This document shows, piece by piece, positions 1,272 through 49,505 of a stretch of 49,505 nt of DNA. The stretch comes from a virus, in IMG/VR virus record IMGVR_UViG_3300023174_000241, positions 1 through 49,505 of that record, one strand, 5' to 3'. The translations under genes were made by a program, and so were the position numbers. The stretch's first letter is position 1. Every line of letters begins with the position of its first letter. The notes below the pieces were generated by a model. The model saw nothing but the letters and a program-made list of their open reading frames with translations, ran no database searches and was not told the DNA's origin.

Positions 1272-1947
1272 TATATTTGTTGTGATACTGATCAAGCCAG
1301 TTGCCAAGCACTTTGATGCCAAAATGCTGAAACAACTTTTGTTTAACAGACTCTGTGTTAAAAAACAAATCCTCACAGGGAATAACACAATTGTAATTGT
1401 GTGATGGCTCAGCCCAGGGCAGTTGAGATTTAATTTCCGTTAATCTTTGTGCTCGAGACAATTCAGTGGGAGTAATGCCGTCGGCTAGCAAGCGAAGACT
1501 TAATACATCCATGTCAGGATTGACTTTGCGTATGAACTCGGGATCAACAGCAGTTTCTTTTAAAATTTTTAATTGTCCTAAAAAGTATTCAACGTTGGGT
1601 TCGGGGCTTAGATGTACTTTTAAAATTCTTTGTTCAATCACATACTGCCAAAGCTTGGGATCTTGTGGATTGGCAATGCGAACACTGCGTACATCTTTGA
1701 GATGTTGCACAGCTAGCTCAGTGTTCCTATGTGATGGGACTACATCATACAACTCACTGTGGCTAGACTGCGCCACAATCTTTGGATTGGGTTTTAAAAA
1801 TTCTTGATTAAAAACATCTTTGACTTTGGTACGTTGATTTTTGTAATTTGTGTACTCTAAAGTCACACATTCTTTACTTTGACTTAAATTTGCACAAAAG
1901 TACTCACCACCAACGCCTTGATCGTAGTCAACAAATAAAAACGGCAT
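1255..1947 (-). CDS. Unrecognised phage protein, 230 aa
   Basis: I do not recognise this family with certainty. The frame is intact, starts 2 bases after the gp47 stop and overlaps the radical-SAM gene, so it is expressed as part of the operon. The N-terminus reads MPFLFVDYDQGVGGEYFCA, a hydrophobic strand followed by a Gly-rich turn. The C-terminus (FQHFGIKVLGNWLDQYHNKY) has the aromatic/Trp-x3-Tyr-His pattern often seen at the end of P-loop sulfotransferase-like proteins. That is a weak resemblance, and no full Walker A motif is visible. There is no signal peptide or membrane segment. A nucleotide or sulfate transfer role is only a guess. Confidence 0.6.
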   Translation of the reverse strand: MPFLFVDYDQGVGGEYFCANLSQSKECVTLEYTNYKNQRTKVKDVFNQEFLKPNPKIVAQSSHSELYDVVPSHRNTELAVQHLKDVRSVRIANPQDPKLWQYVIEQRILKVHLSPEPNVEYFLGQLKILKETAVDPEFIRKVNPDMDVLSLRLLADGITPTELSRAQRLTEIKSQLPWAEPSHNYNCVIPCEDLFFNTESVKQKLFQHFGIKVLGNWLDQYHNKYSAHLT

Positions 1948-35109: not shown

Positions 35110-35942
35110 CCACTGGCGCACTTATATTTGCGTTTAACAATGCTGACATTGATTATGTTGAAATGGCAGCCTGGTCAGCTCACAGGATTAAAAAATATTT
35201 AAATATTCCGGTGGCAGTGGTCACCGACTCAACAACTGCAACGCAATACGCATCGTTTGACCAAGTGATCAACACAGATGTAACCTGGGACGGACACCAT
35301 AGATATTTCACTGACTTGGACAAGTCGGTGCCTTGGTATAATGCCAATAGAGTTGATGCATACCAGCTGACGCCTTGGGATAAAACTCTGGTGTTGGATG
35401 CCGATTATGTGGTCAACAGCGCCAGCTTATCGTCAGTGTTGAAATGCAACAAAGACTTTATGTGTCATCGTCATGCCCGGGATATTAGATCCGTTGACAA
35501 TTGGGATTTGAATTATTTTGGCACATGTGATTTTCCCATGTGGTGGGCCACAGTGATGATGTTTCAAAAATCACCAATAGCCCAACATATTTTTAATTCA
35601 ATGACCATGATTAGAAATAATTGGCAACATTACCGTAATCTGTATGGAATTGCACAAAGTCAATATCGCAACGACTATGCATTGAGTATCAGTCTTGGGC
35701 TGGTCAGCGGACACACACTGATTACCACTGATATTGCTGGCAGTATATTGACGCTGACCCCCGAAGTTCAGTTAGCACCAGGTGATCAACACAATGAGTT
35801 CAACATCACTTGGCAGGATATATCGGGTAAAACAAAACGAGGTCAATTAGTTGACTGTGATTTTCATGCCATGGGCAAAAAACAACTAGGAGGTATAATT
35901 GAAGCTGATCGCAGAGCGGGGCTATTTAATACCAGCCATTAA
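35106..35942 (+). CDS. GT-A-type glycosyltransferase-like protein
   Basis: The fold pattern is that of a nucleotide-sugar transferase. The N-terminal strand ALIFAFNNADIDYVEMA is followed by IPVAVVTDS, then NRVDAYQLTPWDKTLVLDAD, where DAD is a DxD metal/nucleotide-sugar motif around residue 98. Later segments FPMWWATVMMFQKSPIA and a C-terminal FHAMGKKQLGG agree with acceptor and metal-binding parts of GT-A enzymes. It should move a sugar from a UDP- or GDP-donor to an unknown acceptor in the cytoplasm. It begins in an ATGA overlap and shares its last 44 bases with the next gene, which is of the same general type. Confidence 0.65.
   Translation: MTTGALIFAFNNADIDYVEMAAWSAHRIKKYLNIPVAVVTDSTTATQYASFDQVINTDVTWDGHHRYFTDLDKSVPWYNANRVDAYQLTPWDKTLVLDADYVVNSASLSSVLKCNKDFMCHRHARDIRSVDNWDLNYFGTCDFPMWWATVMMFQKSPIAQHIFNSMTMIRNNWQHYRNLYGIAQSQYRNDYALSISLGLVSGHTLITTDIAGSILTLTPEVQLAPGDQHNEFNITWQDISGKTKRGQLVDCDFHAMGKKQLGGIIEADRRAGLFNTSH
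35888..35893 (+). promoter_or_regulatory. Strong Shine-Dalgarno (AGGAGG) that fixes a TTG start
   Basis: AGGAGG lies inside the upstream coding sequence, five bases before TTG at 35899. It supports use of this non-ATG start for the following glycosyltransferase-like gene. Confidence 0.7.
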
Positions 35943-36642
35943 CACAGACACCATTGATTATGTTGCATGTGCTGAACGCCTAAAACACAGCATACTGCAC
36001 TGGCATCCCAGTGCCAACATCACAATCATGACCCTGGATGATTTGCCGTATGGTGACAAAGGTGGCCAAGCCAACGACTGGCAAGTGTTCTACGCCAGCC
36101 CGTATCGACAAACAATCAAGCTTGAGGCTGACATGTTTTGTTCCAGTCCCATTGACCACCACTGGACCTTGTTTGAAAATCGAGATGTTGTCATCAGTCA
36201 AGGATGTAGAGATTTATATGATCAACCATCCAAGTCCAGACATTATCGTAAATTGTTTGATCAAAGCAATCTACCAGATGTGTACAATGCAATAACCTAT
36301 TGGCGTAGAAGCGAAGTTGCCAAAACATTTTTTACCTGGGTTAGACAAATATTTGAAAATTGGGAACAGTACAAAACCTTGCTAAAATTCCCCGACCCCA
36401 TGCCCACCACCGATGTTGTGTATGCAATGGTAGCAACAATACTGGGAGTGGATCAAGTGTGTTTGCCACCCGGTGTCGGCCCAAACATAGTACACATGAA
36501 AAAGCACATCATAGGAACACAAACTGAAAACTGGACCAAGGAGTTAGTATGGGAAATACATCAAGGTAATCTAAGAATCAACACAGTTGCTCAATGGGGG
36601 TTGGTACATTATCAAGTCAAGGAATGGTGCAAGCATGACTGA
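35899..36642 (+). CDS. GT-A-type glycosyltransferase-like protein, TTG start
   Basis: Initiation at TTG is supported by AGGAGG five bases upstream. The protein reads LIPAINTDTIDYVACAERLK, then ANITIMTLDDLPYGDK and YRQTIKLEADMF, an E-A-D variant of the DxD motif near residue 78. Like its upstream neighbour it has a middle DVYNAITYWRRSEVAKTFF segment, where the neighbour has FPMWWATVMMFQKS. It ends with VGPNIVHMKKH, carrying the C-terminal His typical of GT-A metal sites. The two are probably distant relatives with different sugar or acceptor choice. The replacement of the first Asp of DxD by Glu is unusual but occurs in some families. Confidence 0.6.
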   Translation: MKLIAERGYLIPAINTDTIDYVACAERLKHSILHWHPSANITIMTLDDLPYGDKGGQANDWQVFYASPYRQTIKLEADMFCSSPIDHHWTLFENRDVVISQGCRDLYDQPSKSRHYRKLFDQSNLPDVYNAITYWRRSEVAKTFFTWVRQIFENWEQYKTLLKFPDPMPTTDVVYAMVATILGVDQVCLPPGVGPNIVHMKKHIIGTQTENWTKELVWEIHQGNLRINTVAQWGLVHYQVKEWCKHD

Positions 36643-36982
36643 CAACACAACAATTTTTCTAGACTTTTGGCAAAATTATCAATGGCCAGACACAATACCC
36701 ACAACTTACAAATTGTACCACAATGGTGATGGCGAACCAATAACTTACAGCGTAGAAGATTTGTCTGGTAATTATATAGACATCACTGCTGATGAATTTT
36801 TATCTGCAGACATGAATGTTGTTGTAAAAGATAAAAAAATTCACAAAATTGTGGTTACCCGACTATCTAAATTAAAACCCAACAATGATACTGGTACAGC
36901 ATGTCACCCCAATGATATCACTGTGATAGTAAACAATGATCAACCACATAAATTATGGTGTTTAACACATGACAAATATTGA
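36635..36982 (+). CDS. Unrecognised protein, 115 aa
   Basis: The start is the ATG at 36635, which overlaps the stop of the previous gene and follows AAGGA at 36619-36623. A longer frame exists upstream but only inside the previous gene. The product begins NTTIFLDFWQNYQWPDTIPT, continues with YKLYHNGDGEPITYSVEDLS and has a beta-rich middle (DMNVVVKDKKIHKIVVTRLS) with two Cys near the end. No family is recognised. Its place between two glycosyltransferase-like genes, with overlaps on both sides, suggests a partner or regulatory subunit rather than a stray frame. Confidence 0.6.
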   Translation: MTDNTTIFLDFWQNYQWPDTIPTTYKLYHNGDGEPITYSVEDLSGNYIDITADEFLSADMNVVVKDKKIHKIVVTRLSKLKPNNDTGTACHPNDITVIVNNDQPHKLWCLTHDKY

Positions 36983-37895
36983 CATAGCAGACCTAGACTG
37001 CATTTATCTCACCTACGATGAACCACAGCAAGAAGAATTCTGGGTTAAAATTCGCAACATGGTCCCATGGGCAAAACGTGTCAATGGAGTCAAAGGCAGT
37101 GACGCCGCGCATAAGGCCGCTGCCGATGCCAGCGAAACTGAAAGATTCATTCTGATAGACGGGGATAACCTGCCTGATGCTAAATTTTTTAATCTCACGC
37201 TTGAACTTGAAAATCCAGACTATCTCAAAGCTGTGTTTCGTTGGCGTGCCCGCAATCATGTCAATGGCTTGATGTATGGTAATGGAGGTCTAAGTTCGTG
37301 GACTCGAGAGCATGTGTGGAATATGCGCACACATGAAGCCACAGATGGTCGTACTGAAACTGAAGTAGAGTTTTGTTTTGATCCCTTGTATTGGAGTATG
37401 CATGACTGTTACTCAACTACCTACCCCAATGGTAGTCCCAAACAGGCCTGGCGTGCAGGATTTCGTGAAGGTGTCAAAATGTGCCTGGATCGTGGTCGGC
37501 GTCCCAGCCTGGGCGAATTTCGAGATCGCGTACACCAGCGTAACCTGGACCACTTGACAATTTGGCACAATGTAGGCCTAGATGTTGATCAGGGAGCCTG
37601 GGCCATTGCTGGTGCAAGGATGGGCACATACAAGACAATGCTCACTGACTGGGATTATCGAGAAGTGCAAAGTTTTGATAACTTAGAACAAATTTGGGAT
37701 TCAATTAACGGCATAGATCCCGGCGAATTAATTGTCCAGTATCAAACCCAATTACAAACACAACTGGATTTGCCAATGAATATTTTACTGCCCAAGGAGA
37801 GTGAATTTTTTAAACATCACTATCGTGGCAACTGGCACAATCAAGGTGTCATGGTTCGTGAAATAGATGTTATTAGAAAGCACGAAGGATGGTAA
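36969..37895 (+). CDS. GT-A-type glycosyltransferase-like protein
   Basis: The N-terminus DCIYLTYDEPQQEEFWVKIR is followed by WAKRVNGVKGSDAAHKAAAD and RFILIDGDNLPDAKFF, with DGD as the DxD motif near residue 65. This is a family I associate with phage proteins that start with a YLTYDEP-type strand and end the Rossmann-like half with IDGDN. The second half includes FCFDPLYWSMHDCYSTTYPN and many Arg residues that could bind an acidic acceptor. It overlaps both neighbours (14 and 7 bases). It is a likely cytoplasmic transferase whose donor and acceptor are unknown. Confidence 0.6.
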   Translation: MTNIDIADLDCIYLTYDEPQQEEFWVKIRNMVPWAKRVNGVKGSDAAHKAAADASETERFILIDGDNLPDAKFFNLTLELENPDYLKAVFRWRARNHVNGLMYGNGGLSSWTREHVWNMRTHEATDGRTETEVEFCFDPLYWSMHDCYSTTYPNGSPKQAWRAGFREGVKMCLDRGRRPSLGEFRDRVHQRNLDHLTIWHNVGLDVDQGAWAIAGARMGTYKTMLTDWDYREVQSFDNLEQIWDSINGIDPGELIVQYQTQLQTQLDLPMNILLPKESEFFKHHYRGNWHNQGVMVREIDVIRKHEGW

Positions 37896-38623
37896 AAAAT
37901 ATTTTAATAATTGCTGACCTAGGTGCCGCCGGTAATTTAATTAAGAATTTACTTTGGTTAAGTTCAGAAGTGGACTGGCCGATACCCAAAGATAAAAATA
38001 CAACCATATTAAATCAATACACCGCAGATACTAGTTTTACACAGTGGTTACACAAAGAATCTCAGTTGAGAGTTTGGAAGCACTACTATGGGATTGACCT
38101 ATCATATGACTTGGATTACTCAACATTTAATAAACATTTTATCAAAAAAGATTTGCCAGTTGTTTTTTTAAATCACTCAGCTTTCTATCAATTGAACAAA
38201 GTCGGCGAATTCGTTGACAATTTTACTACATTGTATATTCGACCAGTCACAGACTTTGGGCTTGAGTGGCAGGTAAGGAGTTATTGTGAAAAAAAATCTG
38301 TGGAACAATTACATAATTTTTCGTTCAACAATAGCCCAGAACAGGAGCGTGATGAATTTATAAGAATTAATGGTCACGATGCATATTATCGTCTTAACAT
38401 AGATAATATGCGTGAGATAATTAGAGATAGACAACATCACCTGGATAAAATAATTCAAAATAAAATAGACCTTGAAACTATTTTATCAGGTAGCACAGAT
38501 GAAATTGCCAATGCTTTGCCGGTCACAGTTGATAAAGCACTAATTACTAAAGTAGTCACCACCTGGCGCAGTCTACACTGGCCGCTAGAAACCACACTTG
38601 ACTGGGAATATACCAATGTCTAA
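37889..38623 (+). CDS. Unrecognised protein, 244 aa, with nucleotide-binding-like N-terminus
   Basis: It begins VKNILIIADLGAAGNLIKNL, a hydrophobic strand followed by a Gly/Ala-rich turn and helix. This resembles the phosphosulfate or nucleotide loop of sulfotransferase-like and glycosyltransferase-like proteins without a complete Walker A. A second strand, LPVVFLNHSAFYQL, and a helical Glu/Arg/His-rich C-terminus follow. It overlaps the previous gene by 7 bases and the aminotransferase by 8, so it belongs to the same operon. A role in transferring a sulfate or sugar group is possible but not shown. The base composition looks more AT-rich than the virion genes. Confidence 0.55.
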   Translation: MVKNILIIADLGAAGNLIKNLLWLSSEVDWPIPKDKNTTILNQYTADTSFTQWLHKESQLRVWKHYYGIDLSYDLDYSTFNKHFIKKDLPVVFLNHSAFYQLNKVGEFVDNFTTLYIRPVTDFGLEWQVRSYCEKKSVEQLHNFSFNNSPEQERDEFIRINGHDAYYRLNIDNMREIIRDRQHHLDKIIQNKIDLETILSGSTDEIANALPVTVDKALITKVVTTWRSLHWPLETTLDWEYTNV

Positions 38624-39209
38624 CACAGTTGAATTATTTGAAAAAAGAATAGCCGAATTTTATGGAGCAAAATATGCAGTAGCTGTGGATTGCTGTACAC
38701 ATGCAATTGAGTTATGCCTAAGAATGCTAAACCCAACAGCAGTTACTTGCACTAGTAACACTTATTTGTCAATTCCAATGACATTTGAAAAGCTAAATTT
38801 GGAATGGGCGTTTGTTGAGGAAGACTGGCACGACTATTATTACATTGGAAATACAAACATCATTGATGCCGCAGTACACTGGAAGCGTGACGGTTATGTT
38901 CCTGGATCATTAATGTGTTTAAGTTTTCAATATAGAAAGCATTTAAACTTGGGTCGAGGCGGCATGATATTGTTAGATAACAAAGAACAATACGAGCAAT
39001 TATCTAAAATGCGCTTTGATGGTCGTACTGATGATACGCCCTGGAAGATGCAAGATATAACAACTATTGGATACCATTACTACATGACTATTGAGACTGC
39101 CCAACTTGGGTTAGAAAAATTAAATCAAGCAATTGAACGATCACCAGTCAAGCAAGGACATCAAAATTATCCACATTTACCATCATTCACAGTTTTTAAA
39201 AACAAATGA
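38616..39209 (+). CDS. Miniature DegT/DnrJ/EryC1-type sugar aminotransferase
   Basis: The family uses pyridoxal phosphate to aminate keto-sugars bound to nucleotides. Visible landmarks are FEKRIAEFYGAKYAVAVDCC at the start and NIIDAAVHW with the cofactor-contacting Asp at 84. LSFQYRKHLNLGRGGMILLD follows, where K108 sits in the family's S-F-x3-K-x-L-x2-G-x-GG lysine motif. GYHYYMTIETAQLGLEKL matches the family GyNyRM...A..GL.QL block. The protein is only 197 residues against about 370-400. Roughly 70 residues before the lysine and the C-terminal small domain are missing, yet the frame is clean. I chose the ATG at 38616 over an upstream TTG at 38598. It may be a minimal active enzyme, or a non-catalytic sugar-binding relative. 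Confidence 0.7.
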   Translation: MSNTVELFEKRIAEFYGAKYAVAVDCCTHAIELCLRMLNPTAVTCTSNTYLSIPMTFEKLNLEWAFVEEDWHDYYYIGNTNIIDAAVHWKRDGYVPGSLMCLSFQYRKHLNLGRGGMILLDNKEQYEQLSKMRFDGRTDDTPWKMQDITTIGYHYYMTIETAQLGLEKLNQAIERSPVKQGHQNYPHLPSFTVFKNK

Positions 39210-40207
39210 AAAAAATTATAAGAGTTCAAACAGTTGATACGCAAATATTAGATTTAGATAATTTAATTATTGAACTCAGTCATCACATGATTACACAACC
39301 CAACTTGTTGGTAAGGATTGGGATGATGGGCGAAGGTCCGTGCTTGACAACAATGGGCCTGTATTCATTGCTGGATAAATTGTGTAATCGATTCAATTTC
39401 CCCAAAAGCCTTGTTGAAATATTTACTGCCAATCTAATAGAGCATCATGCCGAATATAAAATTATTCGACAACATCAAATGTACGAGCTAGAAGCCGCAC
39501 GAGAGCATGCCAATGAAATATTAGACAGTACCAAGACCTTTGATACAGGGTTTAAACATTTTGGTAATTTTATTAGTCACGGAAATCAATATAGATTAGA
39601 ATTATCCAGTTATCTTTATAAAAATCATAAAAATAAATTAATCAACACTTACCATTGCAATCGCACAGAAACATATCATCGACCACACTTGGGAGTAGAG
39701 GATATGATACATGCTGGGCACTCAAAGGACAAAGTTGATCAAGCAATTGATTTAATTTTTCAAAGTCCAATCCAGGTAGAAAAAATAGATAGCTATCCGA
39801 TTCTTTGTCCGGCAACATTAAACATTACCAAGGTATATCCAGATTTTTTCGTTGAATTGGCATGCAATACACATTATACTGGTAATTTATTTTATGTTGA
39901 TGAAAAAATCTGGAGACCAATGTTAATGAAAACACCATTTATCATACAAGGGCCTCAAAATTTTATTAGCAACTTACAACAGCTAGGGTTTAAAACATTC
40001 AGTAATTGGTGGGATGAAGGATATAGTGAAGTCCCTGAGGATCAGCAAGTACCGATAATTTGTAATTTAGTTGACCATCTAAGTAAATTTGCTGTTGATG
40101 ATTTAAAAATAATGTACAATGAGATGTTACCAATACTAACACACAATTATAACTTGTTGTTTAGTTTATCTGACTCAGATTTTAATCGAGTGTTTAATGA
40201 CAAATAA
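39206..40207 (+). CDS. Putative glycosyltransferase-like protein, EK-x-x-[RK]P family, copy 1
   Basis: The C-terminal third carries FYVDEKIWRPMLMKTPFIIQ, then LQQLGFKTFSNWWDEGY. The same block recurs in the genes at 41554 and 47826 with the pattern E-K-[IT]-[WY]-[RK]-P...P-[FW]-[IL]...GF-x-T[FY]...[DE]. An acidic-Lys motif before a hydrophobic strand at this position is like the acceptor/donor-binding end of family-10-type fucosyltransferases, so a GT-B-like transferase is the best guess. The N-terminal two thirds are divergent, His-rich and AT-rich in base use. It begins in an ATGA overlap with the aminotransferase and overlaps the first permuted radical-SAM gene by 11 bases. Confidence 0.5.
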   Translation: MKKIIRVQTVDTQILDLDNLIIELSHHMITQPNLLVRIGMMGEGPCLTTMGLYSLLDKLCNRFNFPKSLVEIFTANLIEHHAEYKIIRQHQMYELEAAREHANEILDSTKTFDTGFKHFGNFISHGNQYRLELSSYLYKNHKNKLINTYHCNRTETYHRPHLGVEDMIHAGHSKDKVDQAIDLIFQSPIQVEKIDSYPILCPATLNITKVYPDFFVELACNTHYTGNLFYVDEKIWRPMLMKTPFIIQGPQNFISNLQQLGFKTFSNWWDEGYSEVPEDQQVPIICNLVDHLSKFAVDDLKIMYNEMLPILTHNYNLLFSLSDSDFNRVFNDK

Positions 40208-41579
40208 ATCTGATTTTTTAACTGCGGCCGAGGGGATGAAGAATACGTTGGGTCCTGCATTATGTCTGGCAAAATGGAAACAAGTCAGCCTTCATTTGCC
40301 AACCGGATTGAATAATTCATGTTATCACCCTCCCTTGCACAAAATTCCCATTGAAGAGATTGGCAAGAATCCTGGGGCATTGCATAATACCCCACATAAA
40401 AAGGCACAACGAGCATTGATGTTAAATGGTGTTAGACCCAGTGAATGTCAGTATTGTTGGAACATGGAAGATCTAGGTGAAATGAGTGATCGACATTATC
40501 GTAGTGGCGAACCTTGGGCCGCTGTAGACCTAGATAAAATAAAAAATTCAACAGGAGAAGAAGATGACGTTATCCCCAGTTACGTGGAAGTTAATTTTAA
40601 TCATGCTTGTAATCTTAAATGTAGTTATTGCTCACCTCAATTTAGTTCAAGTTGGCAAGATGAAATGGAAAGACACGGAGCCTACCCCACCAGTCGCCCT
40701 CATAATGCTCCTGATCATTTCAGCGGTGATCGCAGACCTATTCCTAATCGGGTTGCTAACCCTTACGTAGATGCATTTTGGGAATGGTGGCCAACTTTGT
40801 ATCCCAAATTAAAACATTTTCGCATGACTGGTGGCGAGCCTCTAATGGACCGGAACACTTACAAGGTGTTTGATTATGTGTTGGCTATGCCTAAGCCAGA
40901 TTTACATTTAAATGTCACTAGTAACTTTAGCGTGGAAGATGCATTGTTTGAAAAATACATAGGCTATGTCAAACAACTATGTAATACCAACATAGAACAC
41001 TTTATGCAATATGTGAGTCTAGATACTGGTAACTTCTTACAAGCCGAGTACATACGACACGGACTTGATAGCGCCAGGCTGATTGACAATGTACTGCGCT
41101 ACTTAGATGAAGTTCCTGCTAGAAACAGTCTCACCTTCATTGTCACAATGAACAATCTTTCTGTGACCGGCCTACAAAGTCTGATGGAATGGATCTTGCA
41201 ACTAAGAAAAACATTTAGCAAAACATATCAACGTGTTTGGTTTGATACACCAGTGTTGCGTACACCTGATTGGCAAAGTCTGCAAATTTTGCCCGAAAGC
41301 TATGCTTACCAACTGGAGAAAACGGCTGACTTCATGGAAGCTAATTTGGAAACTGCTAGTGATCCTTTTCATGGATTCAAGGACTACGAAGTCCAACGCC
41401 TGCGCAGAGACGTTGCTTGGATGCGTGAAGGCCAAAACAAAGACAACACTCAAAAGCAAGCTGATTTTTATCGTTTCTTTAGCGAACACGATCGTAGACG
41501 AGGTACAGACTTTTTGCAAACTTTTCCTGAAATGAAGTCCTGGTGGGCTGAATGTGAGTACCATGCTCGGCAATCGTAA
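40197..41579 (+). CDS. Radical SAM protein with N-terminal twitch-like Cys domain, copy 1
   Basis: The N-terminal domain has four cysteines, C23 (LCLAKW), C42 (NSCYHPP) and C84/C87 (ECQYCW), a pattern able to hold one auxiliary [4Fe-4S] cluster. The radical-SAM core follows with CNLKCSYC (C138, C142, C145) and the TGGEPLM motif. After the core there is no Cys-rich domain, the reverse of the usual SPASM order. It is a close paralogue of the gene at 42710, sharing the HPP, LHNT, NPYVDAF[WF]EWW and GGEPLM blocks. Reductive SAM cleavage would give a 5'-deoxyadenosyl radical. Substrate is unknown, but peptides or sugars are usual for relatives. Its C-terminus (HDRRRGTDFLQTFPEMKSWW) recurs in the paralogues. 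Confidence 0.82.
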   Translation: MTNKSDFLTAAEGMKNTLGPALCLAKWKQVSLHLPTGLNNSCYHPPLHKIPIEEIGKNPGALHNTPHKKAQRALMLNGVRPSECQYCWNMEDLGEMSDRHYRSGEPWAAVDLDKIKNSTGEEDDVIPSYVEVNFNHACNLKCSYCSPQFSSSWQDEMERHGAYPTSRPHNAPDHFSGDRRPIPNRVANPYVDAFWEWWPTLYPKLKHFRMTGGEPLMDRNTYKVFDYVLAMPKPDLHLNVTSNFSVEDALFEKYIGYVKQLCNTNIEHFMQYVSLDTGNFLQAEYIRHGLDSARLIDNVLRYLDEVPARNSLTFIVTMNNLSVTGLQSLMEWILQLRKTFSKTYQRVWFDTPVLRTPDWQSLQILPESYAYQLEKTADFMEANLETASDPFHGFKDYEVQRLRRDVAWMREGQNKDNTQKQADFYRFFSEHDRRRGTDFLQTFPEMKSWWAECEYHARQS

Positions 41580-42717
41580 ATTAATCGTAGATACCCACAG
41601 TGAAATTTACAGTATGATCAAGGATCGCACTGATGATGTATTTTGGAATTTAAATGAGCATATCCAAAAAGGTCAAGTAGTGCCCAATGCTGTGTATGTT
41701 ATTGGCAGAGAGCAGATTCGATTATATGGTAACTTATTACGCACACTAATTGACAGTGCCAAAATAAAAGTTGTGTTTAGCAGTCCTTCAGAAGGATCTG
41801 AAACATTAAAAAGTCATTGTTATCTGTATGGTATTTCTGATCTAGTATTAGATAATAGCATTATATTAGTTGGCGGCGGAGATATGGACGATAGATGGCC
41901 GTGCTTAAAGTATGATAGTTTTTTACCCAAAGTATTAGATTACAATGAAAATATATTGGCTATTTCTAGATCAAATGAAATTTATAATAAAACAAATAAA
42001 CCTTATAAATTTTTATTTCTAAACGGTCGTACAAGGCCGCATAGAAAATATTTGCTAGAACAATTACGAATATCTGGACTATTGGATCAAAGTCTCTGGA
42101 CTTGGTTAGATCTTACCACCGGACTGTCACGTAACATTACATGCATGCACCATCAAGAAGATTTACTTGGCCGTCCAAATGAAATAAAATATTTGCCAAT
42201 TGAATACGAATTTGATAATTTTCAAGACCGTATCACTGTTGACCCCAAGGGTAGCAATGCATTTATTAAAATGCATTTGTTTAAAAATAGTTGGGGAGAC
42301 ATATATCTTAAATCTGAACCTTATATTGACACTTACTTTAGTTTGGTAACTGAAACTGTGTTTGAATATCCTTATAGTTTTAGAACAGAAAAAATTTGGA
42401 AGCCTATTGCCATGGGGCATCCGTGGATTGTTGCATCAAATCAAGGGTATTACAGAGACATACGCAATTTAGGATTTCAAACATTTGGGCACGTGATTGA
42501 TGAAAGTTTTGATAGTATTGAAAATACTCAGGACCGATTGGAACGAATCACCCAAGTAGTTCGGGATCTATGCCAGCAAGACCTTGCAAGTTTTCTCAAA
42601 GAGTGTTATAATGTATGTAAATATAACCAACAACATCTCGCAGAACTGCGACCCCAAGTTCAGAAAGAATTCCCCGATCGTTTCTTTCAATTTTTAAAAG
42701 ACCAACACTTTGAATGA
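41554..42717 (+). CDS. Putative glycosyltransferase-like protein, EK-x-x-[RK]P family, copy 2
   Basis: The conserved C-terminal block is YFSLVTETVFEYPYSFRTEK, then IWKPIAMGHPWIVAS and LGFQTFGHVIDESFDSI. It matches copies 1 and 3 closely at EKIWKP, the HP pair, GF-x-T and DES[FY]D. The N-terminal part has a Rossmann-like look (VYVIGREQIRLYGNL, KPYKFLFLNGRTRPHR), where NGR-x-RPHR may contact a phosphate. The start could be the GTG at 41554 or the ATG at 41563, both inside the end of the upstream radical-SAM gene. It sits between two closely related radical-SAM genes and overlaps both, so the products are probably made in step. Its AT-rich coding contrasts with those neighbours. Confidence 0.55.
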   Translation: MSTMLGNRKLIVDTHSEIYSMIKDRTDDVFWNLNEHIQKGQVVPNAVYVIGREQIRLYGNLLRTLIDSAKIKVVFSSPSEGSETLKSHCYLYGISDLVLDNSIILVGGGDMDDRWPCLKYDSFLPKVLDYNENILAISRSNEIYNKTNKPYKFLFLNGRTRPHRKYLLEQLRISGLLDQSLWTWLDLTTGLSRNITCMHHQEDLLGRPNEIKYLPIEYEFDNFQDRITVDPKGSNAFIKMHLFKNSWGDIYLKSEPYIDTYFSLVTETVFEYPYSFRTEKIWKPIAMGHPWIVASNQGYYRDIRNLGFQTFGHVIDESFDSIENTQDRLERITQVVRDLCQQDLASFLKECYNVCKYNQQHLAELRPQVQKEFPDRFFQFLKDQHFE

Positions 42718-44050
42718 TTTAGAATTTCGTCAACAAGTATTAGATCCACTCAGTGGCAGTTTTTGTGCGGCCAAATGGTACAATGCAACCATCTGGTTGG
42801 GTAGTGGCATGACTACAAGTTGCCATCATCCTCCGGCCCATTTAGTCGACAAAGATAAAGTCGGTGCTAACCCTAGGCTGTTGCACAATACTGATCAAAA
42901 GAAAGCGGATCGTGCAAAAATGTTAGCAGGTGAACGCCCAGCTGGTTGCGAATACTGCTGGAAAATTGAAGACATGGGTCGTGACGCTGTGAGTGATCGT
43001 GTGTATAAAAGCAAAATATATCCCATAAAGGCTCTTAATGAAGCATATCAAACACCTTATACCGAAGATGTTAACCTCCGTACCTTGGAGATTGCTTTTG
43101 ATCGCACTTGCCAGTTTGCTTGTAGCTACTGCAATCCTGCTTTTAGTAGCACATGGGTTAAAGATATACGAAACAACGGAGCTTACCAGGGCCTGGTTAG
43201 TGATGGTAGGAATCACTTTACTCATGATCACGCTTCCGCTCAACTTTACCGATTCGGAGAAAGAAATCCCTACGTGGATGCGTTCTTTGAGTGGTGGGAA
43301 ACCGACCTCCACCGGACACTGCAAGAACTTAGAATAACCGGCGGCGAGCCACTGATGAGTGGCTATACATGGAAACTGATTGACTGGTTCAAAGAAAATC
43401 AAGGCAAAAGTACCACCAAACTAGCCATTAACTCAAATCTGGGCTTTGACACTGAAAAGCTCAACGAGTTTATTGAAGCCATACGGCCGCTACCTCACGT
43501 AGAACTGTACACCAGTATGGAAGCCATTGGTTCACAAGCTGAGTACATACGTGACGGATTGGATTATCAACAATGGTTGGACAATGTACACACACTGTTA
43601 AAGAGCAACACAGTAAAAGCTGTGCATGTGATGTGCACAATAAATGCTCTTTGTTTAGACACCCTGCCTGATTTATTGAGTCGACTGATAGATTTAAAAC
43701 AATTGTACGGGCGCCAAAAAGTTAATTTTACATTAAACATCTTGCGTTTCCCCAGCTTCCAGAGCGCACTTGTGCTGCCAGATGAACTACGAACACAATA
43801 TAAAAATGTGTTAGCTGAATGGGCATACAAGAATCGCGCCAATCCTTGGTTGCATGAACATGAGATAAATCACACACAGAGATTAATTGATTACCTAGAT
43901 GTAGTCAAGACACCGCACTCTGACGCATTTGATATGCCAAAGTTACATAATGATTTCCGTGCATTTTATCGTCAATACGATCAACGCAGAAAAAAAGACT
44001 TTGTAGCAACATTTCCTAAATTAAAAGAGTTTTATGACCTACCAGTATAA
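42710..44050 (+). CDS. Radical SAM protein with N-terminal twitch-like Cys domain, copy 2
   Basis: The N-terminal cysteines are C19 (FCAAKW), C38 (SCHHPPAH) and C80/C83 (GCEYCW). The core motif is CQFACSYC (C134, C138, C141), followed by NPYVDAFFEWW and TGGEPLM. It is the closest relative of the 40197 gene, and the glycosyltransferase-like gene lies between them. The only workable start is TTG at 42710, seven bases inside the upstream gene; the overlapping ATG at 42714 leads to an immediate stop in another frame. No clear Shine-Dalgarno sequence precedes the TTG, suggesting translation by re-initiation. The double His-Pro-Pro segment after C38 is shared only by these two copies and could mark a common substrate. 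Enzyme activity is inferred from motifs. Confidence 0.82.
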   Translation: MNDLEFRQQVLDPLSGSFCAAKWYNATIWLGSGMTTSCHHPPAHLVDKDKVGANPRLLHNTDQKKADRAKMLAGERPAGCEYCWKIEDMGRDAVSDRVYKSKIYPIKALNEAYQTPYTEDVNLRTLEIAFDRTCQFACSYCNPAFSSTWVKDIRNNGAYQGLVSDGRNHFTHDHASAQLYRFGERNPYVDAFFEWWETDLHRTLQELRITGGEPLMSGYTWKLIDWFKENQGKSTTKLAINSNLGFDTEKLNEFIEAIRPLPHVELYTSMEAIGSQAEYIRDGLDYQQWLDNVHTLLKSNTVKAVHVMCTINALCLDTLPDLLSRLIDLKQLYGRQKVNFTLNILRFPSFQSALVLPDELRTQYKNVLAEWAYKNRANPWLHEHEINHTQRLIDYLDVVKTPHSDAFDMPKLHNDFRAFYRQYDQRRKKDFVATFPKLKEFYDLPV

Positions 44051-45296
44051 CTCCACAGACTTGGTGAAGCCCGTGGCTCTTACAGAGCGTGAAGAATTCT
44101 TATTAAAAGATTCCAAGACCTTTTGCATTTACCCTTGGATACATTTACATGCTTATCCCACAGGCGAAGCATATCCTTGTTGTCATGCTGAAATGAAACC
44201 AGGTGTTGTGGGTAATTGCAGAACCAACACACTGGCGGAAATCTGGCGTGACAAACCCATGCAGAAACTTCGTGCAGACATGCTGAGTGAGACCCCACAT
44301 GCCGCTTGTACACGCTGTTATGAGCAAGAAGAGTCGGGATTTTTTAGCGGGCGTCGTAGTGCCAACAAGCATCACGGGCACCATGTCAAAAAGCTAGAGG
44401 CAAATCCGTTTGAAATGACCTATTGGGACATTCGTTTCTCAAACTTATGCAACCTAAAATGCCGTAGCTGTGGGCATATCTTCAGTAGTCAGTGGTATCA
44501 AGACCAAGCTCGATTAGCAGGCCCTGAGTGGAAAAATCAAAATACTGTGCTAAACTATGCTGGACGCACAGAAACAGACATGTGGACGCAGTTAGAGCCG
44601 CATTTGGATTATGTTGAACAAGTATATTTTGCCGGGGGTGAGCCATTATTAATGGAAGAGCACTACAATATTCTAGAAGAATTGCTAAAACGTGGACGCC
44701 GTGATGTCCGATTGATCTATAACACAAATTTTACACATACTGATTTAAAAGGTCGCAGTGTATTTGAGTATTGGAAAGAATTTGATTCTGTTGCTGTGGG
44801 AGCAAGTTTAGACGGGTCAGGCAAGTCGGCAGAATACATACGTAAAGGTACCAAGTGGGCAGATGTTGTACAGAACCGTGAAGATATGTTGCGTATTTGT
44901 CCCCAGGTTGATTTTTATATCAGCCCCACACTCAGTATATTAAATGCCTGGCATTTGCCCGACTTTCATAAAGAATGGGTTAAGGCTGGTTTAATTCGTG
45001 CGCAGGATTTAAATGTAAACATACTACAAGATCCCTTGCATTATAGAATAGACATTGCACCTGCAGAATACAAAACACAATTGCAAAATCGTTATAGAGA
45101 TCACATAGACAATTGGCTACAGGGAAAAGATCCATTGCAACGTGCCACACAGGGATTTGAGTCTGCAATACAGTTCATGATGGCCACAGACAACACTCAT
45201 TTGATTGATACATTTTGGCGCAAAACACATGAACTCGATTCCATGCGTGGAGAAGGTTGGCGTGAAGTTTTACCAGAATTAAAGGCATTAGAATGA
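44034..45296 (+). CDS. Radical SAM protein with N-terminal SPASM-like Cys domain, copy 3
   Basis: The N-terminal domain is FCIYPWIHLHAYPTGEAYPC followed by a second Cys. Cysteines sit at 31, 49, 50, 62, 92 and 95, richer than copies 1 and 2 and closer to a full SPASM pattern (FC-x2-PW...G-x4-CC...C-x2-C). The core has NLCNLKCRSCGHIFSS (C139, C143, C146) and FAGGEPLLMEEH. Later segments include GASLDGSGKSAEYIRKGTKW, the substrate-strand block shared with the partial gene at the right edge (CASLDG). A sporulation- or RiPP-type peptide substrate is possible, but no precursor lies nearby. It overlaps its upstream neighbour by 17 bases and its downstream neighbour by ATGA. Confidence 0.83.
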   Translation: MTYQYNSTDLVKPVALTEREEFLLKDSKTFCIYPWIHLHAYPTGEAYPCCHAEMKPGVVGNCRTNTLAEIWRDKPMQKLRADMLSETPHAACTRCYEQEESGFFSGRRSANKHHGHHVKKLEANPFEMTYWDIRFSNLCNLKCRSCGHIFSSQWYQDQARLAGPEWKNQNTVLNYAGRTETDMWTQLEPHLDYVEQVYFAGGEPLLMEEHYNILEELLKRGRRDVRLIYNTNFTHTDLKGRSVFEYWKEFDSVAVGASLDGSGKSAEYIRKGTKWADVVQNREDMLRICPQVDFYISPTLSILNAWHLPDFHKEWVKAGLIRAQDLNVNILQDPLHYRIDIAPAEYKTQLQNRYRDHIDNWLQGKDPLQRATQGFESAIQFMMATDNTHLIDTFWRKTHELDSMRGEGWREVLPELKALE

Positions 45297-46609
45297 GTAA
45301 TTTAAAAAAGATCGTCAGCGAGCAACATTATCGCAGGAGCCAACAAGTAGGCTGGCCCAATTATCTAGAATTTGTTAGTGGCGCCACAGTGGACAACATT
45401 GAAGTAGCTCAGCAAATATCAGAATTTGTGCAACGTTGTCAAGACAGCTATCAAAGATTGATAGAAAAAGGCCTAGAAGCCACAGCCGGGAACCAGGCAG
45501 GTCAACGGCAAGTATTTTTTGACAAACGATTCCAGGGTGACACACACTGTACTGTTCCCTGGGAAACCATGAGTGTGGGTAGTGAAGGTACCGTGACTAT
45601 TTGTATGAGTCCGGCTTGGATACCTGTGTCAGTGGGTAATGTGCTGACAGCAGATGACATTTATACTGACATACTCAATAGCCCATCGGCACAAAGCATA
45701 CGTAATGAAATATTACAAGGTAGATATTATTATTGCAACAACACACTGTGTAGATTCTTTGATCATTATGATAAAAAACTTTATCAACAAGCCCCAGAGG
45801 ACATTGCTGACATTGCTGACTTTGATGCACTAGCCCCGGTGACTGGAAATGACACTTGTGTGACACAAATACCCAGGAATATCATATTTGATTTTGATCC
45901 CACTTGCAATTTACGTTGCCCCAGCTGCCGGTTTAATGTGATCAATTATAACAAGCATCCTGAATTTCGAGCCAATAATGACAACATTGCTGAAAAGATC
46001 AAGCATTTGATTATTGACAACATTGGCACTCAACCTATTGAGATACGTTGGGCAGGCGGCGAACCCTTTATCAGTGAAGTTTATCTTGATCTCATGGACT
46101 ATATCATTGCCACTGGTCGGAGAAACATTCGACACGTTATTCAAACCAATGGTAGTTATCTGAAAAAGAAACAGGAATTGGTGACAAAACTACTGCCATT
46201 TATTAATGAACTACGCATCAGTTTTGATGCTGCCACTGCTGAAACATACAGTCGTGTGCGTGTAAATGGGCAGTGGGACTTGTTGCTGGAAAATGTGCGT
46301 TGGGTACAAGATCAAATCAAACAGCAAGGCCTTAAAGTTCGTGTCAAAGCCGATTTTGTAGTACAATTAGACAACTATCAAGAAATACCACAGTTTAGAA
46401 CACTGTGTAATGAATTGGGCATTAAGCAAATAAACTTTCAACGCATGTGGAACTGGAATACCTGGCCCATTGAAGAACTGGATAGACGCAACGTCTACAA
46501 CGCCAATCACCCTCTTTACCCTGAGGTTATGCGCCTGTTAGACAGCATTGGCGATTCTGAAGGCAGCATATTGATAGAGGATCTAGGATTGAAAAAGGAC
46601 CTAACATGA
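45293..46609 (+). CDS. Radical SAM protein with N-terminal Cys domain and extra N-terminal extension, copy 4
   Basis: An extra ~80-residue helical extension precedes the Cys domain, which starts at HCTVPWETMSVGSEGTVTIC (C86, C104) and ends with C148/C153 (YYCNNTLC, a C-x4-C rather than C-x2-C). The core is DPTCNLRCPSCRFNVINY (C205, C209, C212), then WAGGEPFISEVYLD and IQTNGSYL. The later DAATAETYSRVRVNGQWDLL block is typical of radical-SAM proteins acting on peptides or large acceptors. It is the most divergent of the six permuted copies and probably has a different substrate. Starts and stops with both neighbours are ATGA overlaps, so it is tightly coupled. Confidence 0.82.
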   Translation: MSNLKKIVSEQHYRRSQQVGWPNYLEFVSGATVDNIEVAQQISEFVQRCQDSYQRLIEKGLEATAGNQAGQRQVFFDKRFQGDTHCTVPWETMSVGSEGTVTICMSPAWIPVSVGNVLTADDIYTDILNSPSAQSIRNEILQGRYYYCNNTLCRFFDHYDKKLYQQAPEDIADIADFDALAPVTGNDTCVTQIPRNIIFDFDPTCNLRCPSCRFNVINYNKHPEFRANNDNIAEKIKHLIIDNIGTQPIEIRWAGGEPFISEVYLDLMDYIIATGRRNIRHVIQTNGSYLKKKQELVTKLLPFINELRISFDAATAETYSRVRVNGQWDLLLENVRWVQDQIKQQGLKVRVKADFVVQLDNYQEIPQFRTLCNELGIKQINFQRMWNWNTWPIEELDRRNVYNANHPLYPEVMRLLDSIGDSEGSILIEDLGLKKDLT

Positions 46610-47820
46610 ACATACCACACGATAAATTTTGCGTACTACCCTGGGTTAGCCTAGAGGCCAGTCCCATTGGCACTGTGCGTCCTTGTTGTTTAGCTGACGA
46701 TGAGCTAGTGGATGACACCGGCAACAAGTTCAGTTTACTCACTGCTGACTTTGCTGACATACAAAACAGCGCCAGCATGCGTGGCCTACGTGAACAGTTT
46801 CTTGCAGGCAAACAACCACAAACGTGCCGTAAATGCTGGAATGAAGAACGTTCAGGCCGCACATCAAAGCGCATGCACACCCTGGAACGAATGAAGCACA
46901 TGGGTATTACATCAGATTGGACAGCAGACGCTAAACCTTTGATGTTTTTAGATCTAAAGCTGGGCAATATCTGCAACTTAAAATGTCGTATTTGCGGTTC
47001 ATGGAGTTCGAGTCAATTTGCCACAGAAGAAATTAATCAGTTACCACGGGAAAAGCAAAAACAATCATTTCCCTATCAAATGTTAAAGGCCGGAGCATGG
47101 CCCAGAGAAAATGAAAGTTTCTGGAACGAAATTGATCAGTGTTTGAATGACATACGCTATATTGAATTCACTGGCGGAGAGCCATTCATGATTGATCAAC
47201 ACTTTGACATGTTGCAAGGCATTGTTGATCGTGGCATTGCTCATCAAGTTGAAATCCACTACAACACAAATGGCACACACTTCCCCGAAAAAGCAGAAGC
47301 TATTTGGAAGCACTTTAAAACAGTGGAAATTGCGTTTTCGATTGATGACTTACGAGAAAGATTTGAATATCAGCGTTCAAATGCTGTGTGGAGCGAAGTA
47401 GTCTTTAATATTGATCGTTTCCGTTTACTCCGGGAAGACTATCCCAATATTCAATTACAATGCTGTAGCACAGTGAACATATTCAATGTGCGTTACATTG
47501 ATGAACTGGCTCGCTGGATTGTGGAACAACAATTTGATTTTGTGTACTGGAACATGATGCACGATGCATGGTATTTCAGCATTGCCAACTTGCCAACCAA
47601 AGCCAAAACGGCCATTGCTGATCATTTGCGTCAGGCCGAAATACCTGTAAAATATCAAACTGAATTTGATAGTATAATTGATTTCATGATGAATGGTCCT
47701 GACACAGACGGTGCGCAAATGCTGAGAGAAATAAAGAACTTGGACCAACGCCGGGGTCAAGACCTGGCCCAGGTGGAACCGGAGTTTGCTCAAGTAATTG
47801 ACTATGTTAGAATTGACTAG
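46606..47820 (+). CDS. Radical SAM protein with N-terminal SPASM-like Cys domain, copy 5
   Basis: The protein opens directly with the Cys domain, FCVLPWVSLEASPIGTVRPC with C9, C27, C28 and then C74/C77 (TCRKCWNEERSG). The core is NICNLKCRICGSWSSSQF (C123, C127, C130) with FTGGEPFMIDQHFDML and HYNTNGTHFPEKAE. It resembles copies 3 and 6 in having PW after the first Cys, a CC pair, and an MRGLREQFLAG-type helix before the last Cys pair. The C-terminus (LDQRRGQDLAQVEPEFAQVI) parallels that of copies 1-3. The start is an ATGA overlap, and only five bases separate it from the glycosyltransferase-like gene downstream. Confidence 0.84.
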   Translation: MNIPHDKFCVLPWVSLEASPIGTVRPCCLADDELVDDTGNKFSLLTADFADIQNSASMRGLREQFLAGKQPQTCRKCWNEERSGRTSKRMHTLERMKHMGITSDWTADAKPLMFLDLKLGNICNLKCRICGSWSSSQFATEEINQLPREKQKQSFPYQMLKAGAWPRENESFWNEIDQCLNDIRYIEFTGGEPFMIDQHFDMLQGIVDRGIAHQVEIHYNTNGTHFPEKAEAIWKHFKTVEIAFSIDDLRERFEYQRSNAVWSEVVFNIDRFRLLREDYPNIQLQCCSTVNIFNVRYIDELARWIVEQQFDFVYWNMMHDAWYFSIANLPTKAKTAIADHLRQAEIPVKYQTEFDSIIDFMMNGPDTDGAQMLREIKNLDQRRGQDLAQVEPEFAQVIDYVRID

Positions 47821-47825
47821 GCCCG

Positions 47826-48722
47826 ATGAATAAAATAAACCTGGTATTGCATCCTAAAGAATATACTAGCTTTAAGATAGCATATCTCCGCCCGTTGTTT
47901 AATCTGTATTTCAACATAACTATTTTTGACGAATCTGTTAATTACCCCAATAAGACATTATTTGTTACTGGGCAATCTTTTGATAAAACTTGGGCCAAGA
48001 TGTTACATAAATCTGGCCATAAAGTCATAGTTGATAATTTGTGGGACATAGAAAAAGTTACCACTGATTTTTACACACTATACAATAAAAACTGGTATTG
48101 GTATAATGAATCTCTTTGGTATCAAAGTTTAGGGTATAACACATACGCACCCAATAGGAATTATTCTAAATTAGCATTTATGCCAATTAATCAAAAAAAA
48201 TCTTATAGAGATCTTTTAGTAAACAAGTTAAGCAGTCGACTCGACCAGTTTATCTACAGTTACAACAGTGAGTTGCAAGGAGACAACAAAACTGGACTAA
48301 ATTGGCAACGCTATTTTAATCCAACCTGGTATGATTCTACCTATTTTAGTCTGGTGGTCGAAACAAAAGTTAGAGCATCTGCAACTGGCACAGTGTTTAT
48401 ATCTGAAAAAACATATAAACCCATAGCACTTCAACATCCGTTTTTGGTATACGGGCCTCCTAATATATTAACAAGTCTTAAAGATAACGGATTTGTAACT
48501 TACGAAAATCTGTTTGACGAGTCATATGATCAGTTAACAGACATTGATACCAAGGTAACAGCCATGCTAGACAATGTTGATAACTTTAAACAAGTATCAT
48601 ACGATAGACTCACACTAGATAAGATTCAGCACAATTACAATCATTTTTTTAACAAATCTTTAATTGTAAATAAAATTAAACAAGAAATAATAGACCCTCT
48701 AATAGAATATGCAGAAACCTGA
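47826..48722 (+). CDS. Putative glycosyltransferase-like protein, EK-x-x-[RK]P family, copy 3
   Basis: At 298 residues this is the shortest copy. Its C-terminal block reads YFSLVVETKVRASATGTVFI, then SEKTYKPIALQHPFLVYGPP and NGFVTYENLFDESYDQL, matching copy 2 at YFSLV-x-ET, EK-x-x-KP, HP and DESYD. The N-terminus (HPKEYTSFKIAYLRPLFNLY) and KVIVDNLWDI suggest a Rossmann-like first domain. It is coded with strongly AT-rich codons (many AAT, AAA, TTT, ATA), unlike the radical-SAM genes on each side. It overlaps the last radical-SAM gene by 14 bases. Its function as a sugar transferase is inferred from the shared motif and operon context only. Confidence 0.55.
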   Translation: MNKINLVLHPKEYTSFKIAYLRPLFNLYFNITIFDESVNYPNKTLFVTGQSFDKTWAKMLHKSGHKVIVDNLWDIEKVTTDFYTLYNKNWYWYNESLWYQSLGYNTYAPNRNYSKLAFMPINQKKSYRDLLVNKLSSRLDQFIYSYNSELQGDNKTGLNWQRYFNPTWYDSTYFSLVVETKVRASATGTVFISEKTYKPIALQHPFLVYGPPNILTSLKDNGFVTYENLFDESYDQLTDIDTKVTAMLDNVDNFKQVSYDRLTLDKIQHNYNHFFNKSLIVNKIKQEIIDPLIEYAET

Positions 48723-49505
48723 ATCATTGTGCCTGGCGCCTTGGACACACACATACCTAAGTCCCCAGACCGAGCGCAGGATGTGTTGTGCTAGTAGAGA
48801 GCCAGCCAACAATTTTAAACAATACATAGATACATCAGCGGGCACTGGCAAATACATTCCTGTCAAGCTAGAAGATCACTGGAACAATGATCACATGCGA
48901 GGAGTTCGTCGACGAATGATGGCTGGGGAAACCTTGCCTGAGTGTGATGTATGCAACAGTAAATTGCTGAACACATCGGTTTATCGAGACTATTTTTGGC
49001 ACTTATTCAAACACAAACTGCCCGAGGTGTTTGAAACAACATCCAGTGATGGGCACACCACCATGAAGCCAGTGAGCTGGGATTATCGATTCAGCAATCT
49101 CTGCAATTTTAAATGCAGAACATGCGGTGACATGTTGAGTTCATCTTGGGAAAGTGAACAACGACAGAACAACATGATAGACTGGAGCAATACAAAAAAT
49201 GCTTGGATGCTGCCAGAAATAAAACAGCAAATAACACAGTTTCAAGATCAACAAATCGAAGCAGAGTTTGCCGAAGCTGTGGAACAACACCGAATAGAAG
49301 AAATTTACTGGGTTGGTGGCGAGCCCCTAATGTATGAACAACATTGGCGCTACATGAAACGCATAATTGAATTAAATGATGGAGGCAAGGTATATGCAAG
49401 GTATAACACCAATCTTAGTCGCGTTGATTTTCGGGGTAGTAATCTATATCGTGATATTTTATCTAATGTTCGCGATTGGCAAATCTGTGCCAGCCTGGAC
49501 GGAAC
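48709..49505 (+). CDS. Radical SAM protein with N-terminal SPASM-like Cys domain, copy 6, cut by the window edge
   Basis: The ATG at 48709 lies inside the end of the upstream gene, and the frame is open to the last base (265 complete codons). The Cys domain is LCLAPWTHTYLSPQTERRMC with C8, C26, C27 and C79/C82 (ECDVC), preceded by the MRGVRRRMMAGE helix. The core has NLCNFKCRTCGDMLSSSW (C132, C136, C139), then YWVGGEPLMYEQHW and ARYNTNLSRVDFRGSNLY, closely following copy 3. It ends at CASLDG, the strand shared with copy 3, so roughly the last third is missing from the window. Further genes of the same operon probably continue to the right. Confidence 0.82.
   Translation, partial: MQKPESLCLAPWTHTYLSPQTERRMCCASREPANNFKQYIDTSAGTGKYIPVKLEDHWNNDHMRGVRRRMMAGETLPECDVCNSKLLNTSVYRDYFWHLFKHKLPEVFETTSSDGHTTMKPVSWDYRFSNLCNFKCRTCGDMLSSSWESEQRQNNMIDWSNTKNAWMLPEIKQQITQFQDQQIEAEFAEAVEQHRIEEIYWVGGEPLMYEQHWRYMKRIIELNDGGKVYARYNTNLSRVDFRGSNLYRDILSNVRDWQICASLDG

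Follow-up and report, generated by a model that had tools for sequence, protein, structure and literature searches.

Why would a phage carry six radical S-adenosylmethionine (SAM) enzymes side by side, and on what would they act? The question is raised by positions 1 to 49,505 of IMG/VR virus record IMGVR_UViG_3300023174_000241. In this 49,505-base stretch, hereafter the window, a first-pass annotation made from the sequence alone had described six radical-SAM genes within positions 40197 to 49505, each with a cysteine-rich domain in front of the core. All six (R1 to R6, Table 1) were located there, in the same direction and running to the window end. The phage origin claimed for them was also borne out. 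The gene content is that of a T4-like jumbo myovirus, with PHROGs matches to baseplate wedge proteins, a late sigma factor and an SbcD-like nuclease subunit, together with tail genes and a tail-fibre-like gene, and related contigs reach 342-353 kb. As set out below, five of the six enzymes recur as a fixed set, and the best explanation, to which we give about an even chance, is a multi-step radical pathway that modifies the sugars of a phage-made glycan.

In each of R1 to R6 the cysteine-rich part comes first, followed by CX3CX2C and then by GGEP. The SPASM/twitch half motif has been defined as CX9-15GX4C...CX2C (PMC6231123). It is matched strictly, and before the core only, in R1 (C23, C42, C84 and C87), R2, R3 and R5; R6 has Thr instead of Gly, and R4 has CX4C instead of CX2C. 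Shuffled N-terminal parts of the same composition match the half motif at P values of 0.0001-0.0013 (0.01-0.13%). The seven-Cys full SPASM motif, with its two clusters, was not found in the copies, which have only its first four Cys. No Cys motif follows the core in R1 to R5 or in the present part of R6. The accompanying claim that the C terminus lacks a Cys domain therefore stands for R1 to R5, while the window end truncates R6, whose C terminus was seen only in relatives, where complete orthologues are about 430 amino acids (aa) long and, as in L030:12455-13747, carry no second motif. R1 to R6 consequently depart from canonical SPASM and twitch proteins, whose auxiliary domain is C-terminal.

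The seven ligand Cys (four in the twitch part, three in the core) are 98-100% invariant in R1, R2, R3, R5 and R6 (53-56 de-duplicated orthologues each), and the cluster Cys of R1 are 100% invariant in 56 orthologues. Further invariant Cys (R1 C262 and C453, R2 C315, R3 C289, R5 C287 and R6 C260) were considered as hydrogen donors of the epimerase kind and dropped, their alignment positions being different. A confident AlphaFold2 (AF2) model of R1 (predicted local distance difference test score, pLDDT, 93; predicted template modelling score, pTM, 0.90) has two N-terminal elements before the barrel: C23 and C42 flank a beta-hairpin (residues 29-40), and a helix (residues 82-92) carries C84 and C87. 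Foldseek matched this model to radical-SAM enzymes in the PDB with weak scores, MoaA among them, and to whole-length phage relatives among viral models (best template modelling score, TM, 0.77). Taken together, the motif, its conservation and the predicted fold strongly suggest that the N-terminal domain binds a cluster, and the four invariant Cys, at the right spacing, would form a twitch cluster of the BtrN type. BtrN, MoaA and SkfB likewise combine the four-Cys half-SPASM motif with a radical-SAM barrel; in those three enzymes, however, the twitch domain follows the core, whereas in R1 to R6 it precedes it.

Profile searches pointed in the same direction. NF033640 (N_Twi_rSAM), with a curated cut-off of 170 bits, is passed by R1, R2, R3, R5 and R6 and missed by R4, which is not filed as a member. 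Pfam SPASM matches lie before the core in R3 (residues 31-96, E 3e-12), R4 (86-149, E 9e-8) and R5 (9-78, E 1.4e-5), and matches to PF04055 were also found, over the cut-off only in R4 and R5. The twitch-first layout is thus already known. Because NF033640 is a curated NCBIfam subfamily with exactly the domain order of R1 to R6, the inverted layout that the first-pass annotation had put forward is not remarkable in itself. The entry has no assigned reaction and makes no mention of a fixed five-member set. We also considered viperin-like enzymes, or other defence or nucleotide-modifying enzymes, to which weak, core-only matches to viperin models and structures might point. However, an N-terminal twitch domain is no viperin feature, and the best score to NF038283, 55.1 bits for R4 against a cut-off of 180, reflects the shared barrel only. 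A viperin or defence function was rejected, and we regard this whole class of explanations as scarcely credible.

What appears to set the locus apart is the company that the copies keep. Viral loci were collected by a search with R3, so that R3 is present by construction, and the best 80 of 213 relatives were compared; counts out of 81 include the window. R1, R2, R3, R5 and R6 occur together in 75 of the 80 viral loci, and in the other five, copies are missing only at or close to the end of the contig. R4, by contrast with this set, is optional (5/81 loci). R3 is the most conserved copy (76-85% identity across the 80 viral loci), the upstream gene order from g31405 to g36969 is kept, and the cassette extends beyond the window in relatives. 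These results support the view of R1, R2, R3, R5 and R6 as distinct enzymes that have been retained as a group, and it is together, rather than singly and unrelated, that the copies recur. The coupling of the genes was predicted to be by overlaps throughout, and overlaps of 4-26 bases were indeed found, with the sole exception of a 5-base gap between R5 and g47826. Several loci (L053, L072, L029, L031 and L078) have extra lineage-specific N_Twi copies, inserted either between R3 and R5 or downstream of R5, and the cassette therefore gains paralogues frequently. In the relatives' genomes that were counted, about 6-10 N_Twi genes lie above the cut-off in each, with further radical-SAM matches below it.

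The set is not confined to these freshwater-type loci. Two marine-type contigs, L089 and L090, carry R1, R2, R3, R6 and R5 at 38-60% identity behind the same upstream genes, including g36969, and L090 also encodes a carbamoyltransferase at 47% identity; a third, L088, ends before R5. These contigs, along with L138 and L156, are labelled as metagenome-assembled genomes of Verrucomicrobia, Betaproteobacteria, Pelagibacter, Rhodobacteraceae or Rickettsiales and have phage gene order. They are probably misbinned phage contigs and were treated as phage contigs. On a chromosome of Bacteriovoracaceae UBA6144 (L094), which is related to predatory bacteria, one operon reads R2, R6, R5-like, R3, R5, R1, R2, with identities of 41-51% for R1, R2, R3 and R6 and 35% for R5, next to genes that by eye are obg- and rplU-like. 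Unlike the phage cassettes, this bacterial operon has no adjoining g41554-type gene or carbamoyltransferase, and it has an additional R1-class copy and a nucleotidyltransferase-like gene. By eye, the product of the latter has an SDLDLT-type motif; such proteins are encoded beside R2 in many Bacteriovoracales loci (L094, L199, L202, L204 and L207), and a phage counterpart was not seen.

To place the paralogues, a maximum-likelihood tree was built by quick search, with Shimodaira-Hasegawa approximate likelihood ratio (SH-aLRT) support and with long-branch warnings. Every phage paralogue group is supported at 99-100, and R1, R2, R3, R5 and R6 each join their marine counterparts at 96-100. The Bacteriovoracaceae counterparts join R1, R5 and R6 at 99 and R2 at 88, while the bacterial R3 copy is merely near phage R3 (82). 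Since each clade also holds a marine counterpart and, for R1, R2, R5 and R6, a Bacteriovoracaceae one, the paralogues diverged a long time ago and have stayed together since. The simplest reading of these sequence comparisons is that the five types predate the divergence of these phages and that the set has been exchanged between phages and bacteria. R1 and R2 form one class (100) and R4 is remote, as the earlier sorting into at least three groups had it; R6, which that sorting joined to R3 and R5, forms a separate deep lineage with no particular kinship to either, and the sorting was too coarse. The view of the copies as several different enzymes on one pathway gained from the tree, from the retention of the set and from a neighbourhood that fits a modification pathway.

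The question of substrate was approached through the bacterial relatives. R1/R2-class genes are present in 48 of 129 genomes of the order to which the L094 bacterium belongs. In the stretches examined around such genes (some neighbours assigned by eye), ABC-2 exporter genes lie beside R2 in L199, L200 and L202, with a GT4 gene also near R2 in L199 and a DegT aminotransferase and a carbamoyltransferase near it in L200; the neighbours of an R1-type gene in L209 include GT2 genes and one for a flavin enzyme of the PRK07208 type. Across nine genomes, a GT2 gene was found within 10 kb of 5 of 13 R1/R2-class genes (expected, 0.71; P value, 4e-4). The phage gene g36969, the best conserved of the cassette's neighbours, provides a second link, with homologues at 33-36% identity beside R1-type genes in Bacteriovoracales. 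They are present in 9 of the 129 genomes, in 8 cases alongside an R1/R2-class gene (P value, 0.0016), and lie within 10 kb of 3 of the 13 R1/R2-class genes (expected, 0.15; P value, 5e-4). The pathway had been suggested to act on a glycan, a virion protein or a small molecule; it is the glycan option that gains most, because bacterial relatives sit in polysaccharide-type loci, and the three-way suggestion is to that extent partly supported.

The phage cassette itself contains candidates for glycan assembly. The interleaved gene g41554 is present in 74 of 81 loci; its start codon is GTG, and an ATG three codons downstream is kept in relatives. Its product has no family match in Pfam, NCBIfam or PHROGs, and its AF2 model (pLDDT 94) gave glycosyltransferases as the top PDB fold matches with weak scores (best E 2.2e-3, TM 0.46 at most). 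The description of the interleaved genes as glycosyltransferase-like therefore agrees with a GT-B-like predicted fold and finds no counterpart in the family databases, and we take these scores as a weak indication of their nature. The second interleaved protein, g47826, has an EK..KP..HPF...GF.T...DE motif block in common with g41554 and full-length homologues in 18 loci. Full-length homologues of g39206 occur in 25 loci, and the DegT-type gene 5' of it is rare in relatives. Upstream, g36969 is about 72% identical across phages and g35899 is present in 71 loci. A PDB sequence search with the glycosyltransferase-like and conserved upstream proteins gave no usable match.

Downstream of R6, relatives encode a conserved 345-aa protein (55 loci), which, like g36969 and g35899, has no Pfam or NCBIfam match, and a NodU/TobZ-type carbamoyltransferase recognised by Pfam (71 loci). 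The latter was the only such gene found in each of seven large genomes, adjoins the cassette in those compared, and has TobZ, GdmN and novobiocin carbamoyltransferase as its PDB kin. An amidinotransferase gene follows on the opposite strand in 47 loci, with PDB sequence matches to GATM, StrB1-type enzymes and SxtG, and an FkbM methyltransferase gene (Pfam) is sometimes present (13 loci). A distant phage has the same gene combination: on L168 (Marine virus AG-345-D19), a 7,955-base single-cell contig, a carbamoyltransferase gene (48%) lies directly 5' of an N_Twi gene, and an amidinotransferase-like gene is also present. Such neighbours could also belong to a small-molecule pathway, whose product would be an aminoglycoside- or guanidino-carbamoyl-type metabolite serving as a host-directed effector, signal or cofactor. 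StrB1, HsvA and SxtG, kin of the amidinotransferase, come from small-molecule pathways, as do the three carbamoyltransferase relatives, and BtrN is an aminoglycoside enzyme (PMC9012708). Neither a cyclitol synthase nor an exporter dedicated to metabolites was recognised, however, and a polymer is suggested by the abundance of glycosyltransferase-like genes and by the exporters found with the bacterial relatives; a small-molecule product is decidedly unlikely in our view.

We therefore return to a glycan as the substrate. The CX3CX2C cluster would split SAM, and the resulting 5'-deoxyadenosyl radical would abstract hydrogen from a C-H bond that is not activated. The four-Cys cluster at the N terminus, with a full complement of ligands like that of BtrN, would most likely accept the substrate electron in a dehydrogenation or tune the substrate radical in an epimerisation. 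BtrN is a twitch enzyme with a four-Cys auxiliary cluster that oxidises an aminocyclitol, its substrate radical probably being oxidised via the auxiliary cluster (PMC9012708). R1, R2, R3, R5 and R6, with R4 as an optional addition, may work serially or at different positions of the sugar residues of a glycan assembled by the co-encoded glycosyltransferase-like proteins, which the carbamoyltransferase, amidinotransferase, aminotransferase and FkbM methyltransferase of relatives could then decorate. Once complete, the glycan would end up on the tail fibres, on another part of the virion or on the surface of the infected cell; the constant position of the cassette after tail-fibre-like genes speaks for the virion, or at the least for late expression. 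That the substrate is a sugar, which types of reaction occur and what the acceptor is are what we infer from this combination of genes. One or two clear genes for an A-type iron-sulfur (Fe-S) carrier are present per genome in 8 of 8 relatives (G001-G008), which fits a phage that has many clusters to load.

Several observations weigh against a glycan. The proximity tests were post hoc and cover few genomes, and we read them as support rather than proof. The most complete bacterial set, that of L094, has flanks of up to 20 kb without glycan genes, save for an open reading frame (ORF) that by eye is NDP-sugar-pyrophosphorylase-like, and many single N_Twi genes of other bacteria have no examined glycan link. 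The predicted GT-B fold is matched weakly, with no match under E 1e-3. Finally, many of the SPASM/twitch enzymes characterised so far have peptides or proteins as substrates (PMC6231123), and the place of the cassette behind tail-fibre-like genes suits protein modification as well as it suits a glycan.

These last two points make modification of a protein or peptide the strongest rival. The enzymes would introduce cross-links, epimerised residues or oxidations into virion proteins whose genes lie just upstream, such as those of the tail fibre, or into an unrecognised precursor peptide. The cassette comes after the tail-fibre-like genes g32062 and g33739 in freshwater as well as marine phages, and the eight radical-SAM genes of Aeromonas phage 332-Vera lie within the structural cluster (PMC12390700). 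The bacterial relatives, however, have no adjoining tail genes, and some sit in polysaccharide-type loci; the kin of the carbamoyl- and amidinotransferases have sugars, cyclitols and small molecules as substrates; and the loci read showed no small, conserved intergenic ORF, ORFs of less than 80 aa not having been searched. On this evidence we consider protein modification possible but rather unlikely.

Modification of the phage DNA was weighed as well, with the enzymes and glycosyltransferases acting on its bases, given that radical-SAM, carbamoyltransferase and glycosyltransferase genes are known in phage base-modification systems. PF00303, the thymidylate-synthase/hydroxymethylase family, is nevertheless absent from 5 of 5 relatives of 342-353 kb, with the control positive in nine genomes; Tet_JBP is absent from 7 of 7, here with no positive control; and the same enzyme set occurs on the bacterial chromosome of L094. 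DNA hypermodification is accordingly disfavoured as very improbable.

Phages with many radical-SAM genes have been reported before. The T4-like marine genome TARA_ERS488813_N000010 (2017) has 12 such genes and an A-type Fe-S carrier, like that of the relatives here (PMC5332604), and 332-Vera (2025), a phiKZ-type phage unlike the T4-like phage studied here, has eight. The accessible parts of these two accounts name no N-terminal twitch layout, paralogue sets or glycan context. Vibrio phages K566/K567 have a cluster of three to four N_Twi-like genes, at 21-26% identity, and the two copies that were placed fall outside the R1-R6 clades; our search found no R2 relatives in isolated phages. A literature search, with most subscription journals outside its reach, did not find the five-paralogue module, its sharing with Bacteriovoracales or a glycan context, nor anything on radical-SAM enzymes together with glycosyltransferases and jumbo phages, or together with carbamoyltransferases. 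The five-paralogue module thus appears to be undescribed. More tentatively than the glycan substrate alone, we propose an undescribed radical glycan pathway in which five N-terminal-twitch enzymes, forming a module common to freshwater and marine jumbo phages and Bacteriovoracales, would make successive C-H modifications on the sugars of a surface or virion glycan that also bears carbamoyl and amidino groups.

N_Twi_rSAM has had no assigned reaction. Through the fixed five-enzyme set, which is found again in dozens of contigs from phages and on chromosomes of bacteria related to predatory ones, this anonymous family becomes an ordered pathway amenable to reconstitution. If the substrate is a sugar, radical-SAM chemistry would extend to phage-made glycans, and the cassette would illustrate how a phage can sustain numerous oxygen-sensitive enzymes by bringing its own Fe-S carrier. 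The result would bear on how jumbo phages decorate their virions or change the cell surface.

Table 1. Genes of the radical-SAM cassette and its upstream neighbours in the window
Gene	Description	Position	Strand	Evidence
g35899	Conserved; LEADMF motif; glycosyltransferase-like by eye	35899..36642	+	No family match
g36969	Highly conserved; 308 aa; IDGDN motif; glycosyltransferase-like by eye	36969..37895	+	No family match
	DegT/DnrJ/EryC1/StrS sugar-aminotransferase-like; short; variable slot	38598..39209	+	Pfam PF01041, 70.2 bits (cut-off 19.8)
g39206	Glycosyltransferase-like; g41554 family; variable slot directly 5' of R1	39206..40207	+	Alignment with g41554
R1	N-terminal-twitch radical-SAM enzyme; HPP class; 460 aa	40197..41579	+	NF033640, 312.8 bits
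g41554	Interleaved; glycosyltransferase-like; 387 aa; probable GT-B fold	41554..42717	+	AF2 model, PDB fold matches
R2	N-terminal-twitch radical-SAM enzyme; HPP class; 446 aa	42710..44050	+	NF033640, 310.7 bits; sister of R1
R3	N-terminal-twitch radical-SAM enzyme; CC pair; 420 aa	44034..45296	+	NF033640, 392.6 bits
R4	Divergent radical-SAM enzyme; N-terminal SPASM-like domain (CX4C); 438 aa; optional	45293..46609	+	NF033640, 104.4 bits
R5	N-terminal-twitch radical-SAM enzyme; CC pair; 404 aa	46606..47820	+	NF033640, 341 bits
g47826	Second interleaved glycosyltransferase-like protein; distant g41554 paralogue; optional	47826..48722	+	Motif block common with g41554
R6	N-terminal-twitch radical-SAM enzyme; CC pair; separate lineage; cut by window end	48709..49505	+	NF033640, 212.7 bits on present part

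Two further features of the window lie outside the cassette. The structural block includes a single ORF of 4,717 aa (17091-31244, plus strand). A seventh radical-SAM gene (444-1388, minus strand; 314 aa) has a twitch-like Cys motif after the core, which is the canonical order, unlike that of R1 to R6.

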